Source: Castellaniella denitrificans | GTDB taxonomy: Bacteria; Pseudomonadota; Gammaproteobacteria; Burkholderiales; Burkholderiaceae_B | Direction of reading: 5' to 3' | Length of the DNA: 64,000 bases | Assembly (NCBI RefSeq): GCF_027214045.1 | Contig: NZ_JAPWHE010000010.1 | Span: forward strand, 1 to 64,000 | Part shown: piece after piece, positions 16,077 through 17,252 of the stretch | Numbering within the stretch: position 1 is the stretch's first letter | Layout: each line of letters begins with the position of its first letter | The notes under the pieces: model-generated | What the model saw: only the letters and a program-made list of their open reading frames with translations | Database searches by the model: none | What the model was told of the DNA's origin: nothing | Position numbers and translations under genes: made by a program

Positions 16077-16155
16077 GGGCCTCTAGCTCATGCCTGGTTA
16101 GAGCAGCGGACTCATAATCCGTTGGTGCCGAGTTCGACTCTCGGGGGGCCCACCA
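16077..16155 (+). tRNA. tRNA-Ile2 (CAU anticodon), prophage attachment gene
   Basis: A complete cloverleaf: acceptor GGGCCTC pairs with GGGGCCC, followed by A73 and encoded CCA. The anticodon stem GCGGA/TCCGT closes loop CTCATAA with anticodon CAT; T-stem CCGAG/CTCGG. The ileX-like body suggests the isoleucine tRNA whose C34 becomes lysidine and reads AUA, but an elongator Met tRNA cannot be excluded. The 5' half is host DNA; from 16109 onward it is the attL core. A GATAAT box at 16028-16033 may be its promoter. Confidence 0.92.
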
Positions 16156-17252
16156 GAATTATCATGTTGAATCAGTACCTTATCGCCACCCTGCCCGGTG
16201 GCGATTTCCGTTTCTGGGGTATGGTGTGCCCAAAACGTGACCGCGTTCGCGTGGGCTTCCAAGTGGCTGGGTGCAAGGTGCGCGTACTTCTGCACCATTT
16301 CGATGGTTTCCCATCCGCCCAGTTCCTTGACCACCAGCAGAGGCGTGCCGGCCTGCACATGCCAGGACGCCCAGGTGTGCCGCAGGTCGTGAAACCGGAA
16401 ATCCTCGAGGCCTACTTCTGAGCATGCCCGCTTGAAACACCTGGAGTCGATCTGGGTGATACGCCCCGGGGTATCTCCCTTGCGTGGCCTGCGCTCGAAG
16501 ACATAGCGAACGGCCCCCTGCAGGCGCCGGCGCAAGACCGCCACCGCATCCCCATTCAGCGGGATTGACCGGGCGCAGCCTGACTTCGCCTGCTCCGCCC
16601 TCACCCATGCTGTGCGGTTCTCCAGGTTCACGTCTGCCGGCAGCAGGCCCAGCAGTTCGTCCTCCCGCATGCCTGTGGCCACGGCCACCAGGGCCACATC
16701 TTGCATCCATGGGATCGAAATAGCCCGGATAAGCGACTGGATGACAGGCCGAGGTTCCCATCGCACGCGCTTGGACGGCTCCTCGAACCTCTCAAGCTTC
16801 GGCGCCTTCGACAGCCAGTCGCGCCCTGCGGCAAGGCTGAGAATGCGCTTCATAGTGGACAGGTAGCGGTTCTTCGTCGCAGCCGAAACCGGCGTCGGCT
16901 TGCGGTGCTTGTGGGTCGTGTGCGTGGGCAAGGAATTCATGATCTTGCCGGAGGTCAAAGAGCGAATTGGCGTGTCGCCACCCAGTGCCTCGCGCCAGTA
17001 CATGACGTGCCTGGCCTTGGCCTTGTAGTCGCTCTGCCCTTCCGAGATTTCGAGCATCGCTAGGGCCGCCGTGTCGAAAACGATGTCGGGGGCCTCGCCC
17101 AGCTTATCCTGGCGCCACAACTCGGCTTTCAGCCGGTCGTGGTATTCCTGGGCTTCGCGCCGGCTACTCGTGCCAGTAGAGCGTCTAATTCTTTGGCCGC
17201 CTGGCGTGCGGATATCAAGCCACCAGGTGCCGTTACGCTGTCGGATCGACAT
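16098..17252 (-). CDS. int: Tyrosine-recombinase integrase (3' end inside tRNA)
   Basis: A 384-aa phage integrase. Catalytic residues are visible: Arg in TGMREDELLGL (about 196), HDLRHTW (about 286) and the Tyr in EMVQKYAHL (about 321). It catalyses integration and excision at the tRNA. The gene reads through attL, and its stop (16098-16100) is in host tRNA sequence. The last residues are RIMSPLL in the prophage, whereas at attR the same frame gives RIMSLAHQKAA. Its start region is overlapped by the Xis candidate for 124 bp. Confidence 0.96.
   Translation of the reverse strand: MSIRQRNGTWWLDIRTPGGQRIRRSTGTSSRREAQEYHDRLKAELWRQDKLGEAPDIVFDTAALAMLEISEGQSDYKAKARHVMYWREALGGDTPIRSLTSGKIMNSLPTHTTHKHRKPTPVSAATKNRYLSTMKRILSLAAGRDWLSKAPKLERFEEPSKRVRWEPRPVIQSLIRAISIPWMQDVALVAVATGMREDELLGLLPADVNLENRTAWVRAEQAKSGCARSIPLNGDAVAVLRRRLQGAVRYVFERRPRKGDTPGRITQIDSRCFKRACSEVGLEDFRFHDLRHTWASWHVQAGTPLLVVKELGGWETIEMVQKYAHLAPSHLEAHANAVTFWAHHTPETEIATGQGGDKVLIQHDNSGGPPESRTRHQRIMSPLL
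16109..16160. repeat. attL core (52 bp)
   Basis: Identical to 52928-52979. It begins in the 5' side of the tRNA anticodon stem, runs through the CCA and ends with GAATT. Base 16108 differs from 52927 and base 16161 differs from 52980, which sets the ends. Integration therefore leaves the tRNA whole at this end. Confidence 0.97.
16224..16239. promoter_or_regulatory. Candidate integrase arm-type site, left
   Basis: GTGTGCCCAAAACGTG here, 64 bp inside attL, is repeated exactly at 52793-52808 near attR. A 16-bp match at both phage ends in the same orientation fits arm-type Int binding sites. This copy lies within the int coding sequence. Confidence 0.5.

Follow-up and report, generated by a model that had tools for sequence, protein, structure and literature searches.

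Rewriting of an integrase C-terminus by integration is already known. According to one account of these systems (PMC4701971), attP of Myxococcus phage Mx8 is part of the int coding sequence, and upon integration 112 residues give way to 13 and activity falls; when streptococcal ICEs insert in rumA, the 3′ portion of their integrase gene is exchanged and the C-terminus of the protein is altered. In mycobacteriophage BPs, the tRNA core lies within a coding gene, a host base adjoining the core creates a new stop, and integration takes an ssrA-like tag off the repressor, while the BPs integrase itself is tagged (PMC9262239, PMC4557955).

The locus described here belongs to this known kind. It lies in a 64-kb stretch of DNA, which is called the window. 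Like Mx8, it carries an att core within the reading frame of a tyrosine integrase, so that integration would change the C-terminus; unlike Mx8, as that phage is portrayed in the account cited, it swaps seven residues for three rather than 112 for 13, and does so beyond the last predicted helix. The window shares with the rumA ICEs an integrase C-terminus altered by integration, but the ICEs, in the same account, use a serine recombinase and a protein-coding target gene. It shares with BPs a tRNA core inside a coding gene, but that gene is int in the window and the repressor gene in BPs, for which no evident RDF and dispensable arm sites are also reported.

The window contains a 36.8-kb prophage integrated in a CAU tRNA gene. 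Comparison of its two end regions gave a longest exact match of 52 bp (16109–16160 = 52928–52979), and a 36-bp probe within this core found two sites only, attL and attR, in the 3.1-Mb, 50-contig assembly. The core takes in the 3′ part of the tRNA gene, and the tRNA is left whole at the left end. The prophage looks functional, since a PHROGs scan of 20 ORFs found CI-like repressor, terminase, portal and excisionase-like genes. The main features are as follows.

16077–16155, plus strand: CAU tRNA gene, intact according to ARAGORN; its antisense encodes PLL and the stop of the prophage-form integrase
16098–17252, minus strand: int, prophage form, a tyrosine integrase of 384 residues ending RIMSPLL, stop TAA (PF00589, 1.4e-27)
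16109–16160, no strand: attL core, 52 bp, entirely within int
17129–17617, minus strand: excisionase-like gene (phrog_2907, 1.4e-11), overlapping the int start
26187–27194, minus strand: CI-like repressor gene (phrog_4, 4.8e-49), about 10 kb from the attL core
52905–52927, minus strand: phage DNA of the circle-form tail, which would encode LAHQKAA and the stop at 52905–52907
52928–52979, no strand: attR core, the same 52 bp, exact

The Phage_integrase domain PF00589 scores 97 bits in int against a curated cut-off of 27.1, which identifies the protein as a tyrosine recombinase. Residues R196, K223, H288, R291, W314 and Y323, which we take to be the catalytic R-K-H-R-W-Y set, are invariant across 11 aligned rows. 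The initial annotation had claimed that int reads through the tRNA core and that integration rewrites its C-terminus. Both ends of the ORF, read from the sequence, bear this out: the entire 52-bp core lies within the int frame, and the rewriting follows from the core, its flanks and the two reading frames. As had also been claimed, the prophage form ends RIMSPLL on host tRNA bases and stop, and the form obtained when the core is fused to the left flank of attR, as would occur in the excised circle, ends RIMSLAHQKAA with its stop at 52905–52907 (388 residues). As both copies of the core are identical, the position of strand exchange within it is irrelevant to this result. The count of residues after the shared Ser had been given as eight versus three; the three stand (PLL), and the eight are seven (LAHQKAA). 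At the level of sequence, the tail swap is thus confirmed as real, and both forms of the protein are presumably expressed. An incidental frame of 66 residues from host DNA (52905–53105) crosses the core at attR and shares the LAHQKAA ending.

The structure of the prophage form only was modelled with AlphaFold2, using 47 aligned rows. Mean pLDDT was 71 for residues 321–330 and 61 for residues 331–340, and thereafter fell from 51 to 42 at the end of the protein, although the low tail values may in part stem from the small number of aligned rows. The last predicted helix ends at residue 337, and the swapped residues lie beyond it. The model indicates that the tail carrying the swap is probably disordered, and a direct effect of the swap on catalysis appears unlikely, because the swapped residues end a low-confidence tail beyond the last helix.

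Other elements are packed around the int 3′ end and the attP arm.

16182–16205, plus strand: terminator-like hairpin with a 9-bp stem and a T-rich tail, 3′ of the tRNA and within int
16226–16239, plus strand: putative arm-type Int site, GTGCCCAAAACGTG, within int coding DNA; its role is suggested by the repeat
52795–52819, plus strand: two putative arm-type sites, GTGCCCAAAA twice (52795 and 52806) with 11-bp spacing, in the other attP arm
52866–52896, minus strand: attP-arm block common to the attR arms of two relatives, L172 and L175

The hairpin begins 27 bases beyond the tRNA end on the plus strand. Shuffles of the same stretch average 0.6 such sites, so the scan is weak alone; a scripted search of relatives with at least 50% identity found a hairpin of at least six pairs near the int stop in 24 of 28, against 73 of 1,120 shuffles, with just a weak one in L082. 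The phage replaces the 3′ flank of the tRNA and, with the hairpin, may supply the tRNA with a terminator. The copy of GTGCCCAAAA at 16226, inside int, is the third of this arm-like repeat. What we take to be the IHF consensus fits the block of L172 and L175 by eye and is one base off in the window, whose block (52866–52896) holds no exact match to it. The same arm carries a LexA/SOS-like box at 52825–52844, TACTGTATGCTCATACAGCA, the sole CTGT-N8-ACAG in the 64-kb window; the 20-base pattern, presumably the LexA/SOS consensus, occurred at up to one mismatch with a mean of 0.00 in 100 shuffles. By eye, the L172 arm region also has such a box. No convincing gene start was found in the window downstream of the box at 52825–52844. 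Integration-dependent immunity of the BPs type was rejected for the window: the CI-like gene lies some 10 kb from the attL core, so attP is outside the repressor. Nor does the window resemble BPs in lacking an RDF and arm sites, as an excisionase-like gene and putative arm-like repeats are present.

Relatives mostly stop earlier than the window integrase where they could be compared. Read in the window's frame, the hairpin loop of L015 and L033 includes a stop codon, whereas that of the window has sense codons only. The integrase forms a clade of four rows with L033, L035 and L078 (SH-aLRT 99), and these three stop within the hairpin or just beyond. On the 47-row tree, read-through takes a minimum of three changes, with a tRNA visible near the stop in 28 of the 46 non-window rows and the 18 others, L035 among them, scored as early stops. 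This distribution suggests that read-through is a derived state, and it looks sporadic. Read-through was counted in at least one of 30 family loci (the window itself; L014 leaves its contig without a stop), at least four of 80 genome-contig loci (the best 80 of 560 confirmed) and at least two of 44 viral contigs. These are lower bounds, because only some loci show a tRNA near the stop (25 of 30, 61 of 80 and 8 of 44, respectively) and, in 31 of the 44 viral loci, no more than 30 bases follow the int stop. An order-level search for a closer relative matched 4 of 399 genomes at E 1e-95, and the three other than the window showed no read-through. The searches, some of which may omit very near records, turned up no near-identical integrase. 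Shewanella phage vB_Sb_QDWS encodes an integrase of the same family (56% identity over 91% of the query) and, by eye, has a hairpin near the int 3′ end followed by a tRNA-like stretch; unlike that of the window, its integrase stops ahead of this stretch and ends SLAA.

The same swap is predicted in Neisseria dentiae (L127 with L161), where a 49-bp core has its attR 40.7 kb away. Joined from sequence, its integrase would exchange ...TVR-RSTD for ...TVR-NIKYN, neither with Ala-Ala, and since these tails are unrelated to those of the window, tail content is not conserved. Read-through is common to three Neisseria genomes (L127, L139 and L150) and, because it persists there, may be useful. For L139, L150 and L099, the patterns used found no attR partner core at prophage distance. 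The Rodentibacter integrase (L099, L051) reads across its entire tRNA-Ser target and ends past it. In genome G182, the 17-base core pattern occurs on three contigs (L170, L173 and L175): one with attL, one with an apparent outer attR, and one flanked by int-like DNA and other DNA, as in tandem prophages.

We consider it probable that the window integrase has lost a stop codon and that the phage tolerates the swap, which would affect catalysis little; if the swap matters, protein turnover is the likeliest route, because only the circle form ends in Ala-Ala. In this reading, attP would enclose the int 3′ end along with an arm-like site, the core and a hairpin resembling a terminator for the target tRNA, and the ancestral stop codon probably lay in or near this hairpin. 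Its loss in this lineage would let the frame cross the core and end in whatever DNA adjoins, that is, host tRNA antisense, giving PLL, in the lysogen and DNA of the phage arm, giving LAHQKAA, in the excised circle. With each integration or excision, a tail that is probably disordered would exchange its last seven residues for three or the reverse. We infer both the direction of the change, a loss of the stop, and the neutrality of the swap. Some observations weigh against tolerated loss: the circle-form Ala-Ala has a probability of about 1.7% by chance and near relatives have more Ala-Ala ends outside hairpins than chance predicts (3 of 13, nominal P 0.001), so the end may be under selection; read-through is kept in three Neisseria genomes, where it may be useful; and 18 of 46 tree rows were labelled early stops with no tRNA visible. 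That read-through is decay, either because the prophage no longer excises or because the stop loss is recent damage, seems quite improbable. The case is known from a single genome, with no near-identical integrase in searches that may omit very near records; but the invariant residues R196, K223, H288, R291, W314 and Y323 are intact, attL and attR share the same exact core, and the 20 ORFs scanned include repressor, terminase and portal genes and an excisionase-like gene. Still less probable, we think, is a Mx8-like effect in which a less active prophage form lowers integrase activity and guards the lysogen against excision. Mx8 itself trades 112 C-terminal residues for 13, with a reported drop in integrase activity (PMC4701971), whereas here the differing residues are only the last three or seven, past the last predicted helix (337) in a low-confidence stretch, and related integrases have shorter, different tails, as their sequences indicate.

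The initial annotation also suggested that the swap could bias integration versus excision or alter stability. The low model confidence of the tail, the sporadic and seemingly derived nature of read-through and the unrelated tails of the distant Neisseria relative speak against such effects, and the Ala-Ala end of the circle form, which resembles ClpXP tags and makes QKAA a candidate degron, lends the stability idea some weight. Integration might remove a ClpXP-type degron, such that the QKAA circle form is short-lived and limits integration after infection while the PLL prophage form is stable and abundant enough for excision at induction, much as integration takes a tag off the BPs repressor; we hold this reading to be unlikely. 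A random reading into this prophage ends in Ala-Ala with a chance of 1.7%. Ala-Ala also ends 15 of 29 thinned integrase rows (at least 50% identity, the prophage form of the window included in the set), some of which, like the SLAA of L082, lie away from hairpin arms, and the sequenced Shewanella phage integrase ends SLAA as well. However, hairpin arms account for 12 of these 15 ends, which leaves degron selection at the integrase end only weakly supported, and Ala-Ala as a clean family degron was not taken as strong evidence. Outside hairpin arms (13 rows, with the window form omitted and L168 added), 3 of 13 end in AA and 7 of 13 in A, each at a nominal P of about 0.001 that is optimistic since the rows are related; frame controls gave AA in 0 of 24 and 1 of 19, a weak comparison because other frames stop at different places. 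Relatives that stop before the core would keep the same end on integration, so end stripping is not a family feature. The tail may also simply have been inherited with the arm DNA. Over the first 24 bases, the window shares 14 with the arm of L172 (shuffle P 0.0012), 11 with that of L175 (P 0.042) and 6 with that of L170 (P 0.69), and the L172 arm reads SLALYKKA in the frame of the window tail. The arm similarity looks like DNA ancestry, because L033's own int stops earlier, and coding conservation of the tail was rejected. In BPs, both integrase and repressor carry ssrA-like tags (PMC9262239), which favours degron removal. That integration acts as a stability switch, stripping from the integrase an Ala-Ala degron for ClpXP that the far attP arm encodes, seems rather unlikely to us.

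On the reading of a tolerated stop loss, the C-terminus annotated for an integrase from prophage DNA can differ from the one that the phage makes. Even if the swap is neutral, the locus illustrates how an arm-like site, a tRNA terminator, a stop codon and a core may be compacted into one int 3′ end. If turnover differs between the two forms, the half-life of the recombinase would record whether the phage is integrated, a simple switch that resets itself. Were the stability switch true, the integrase would be short-lived after infection and long-lived in the lysogen, its half-life tied to the state of the DNA with no regulator.
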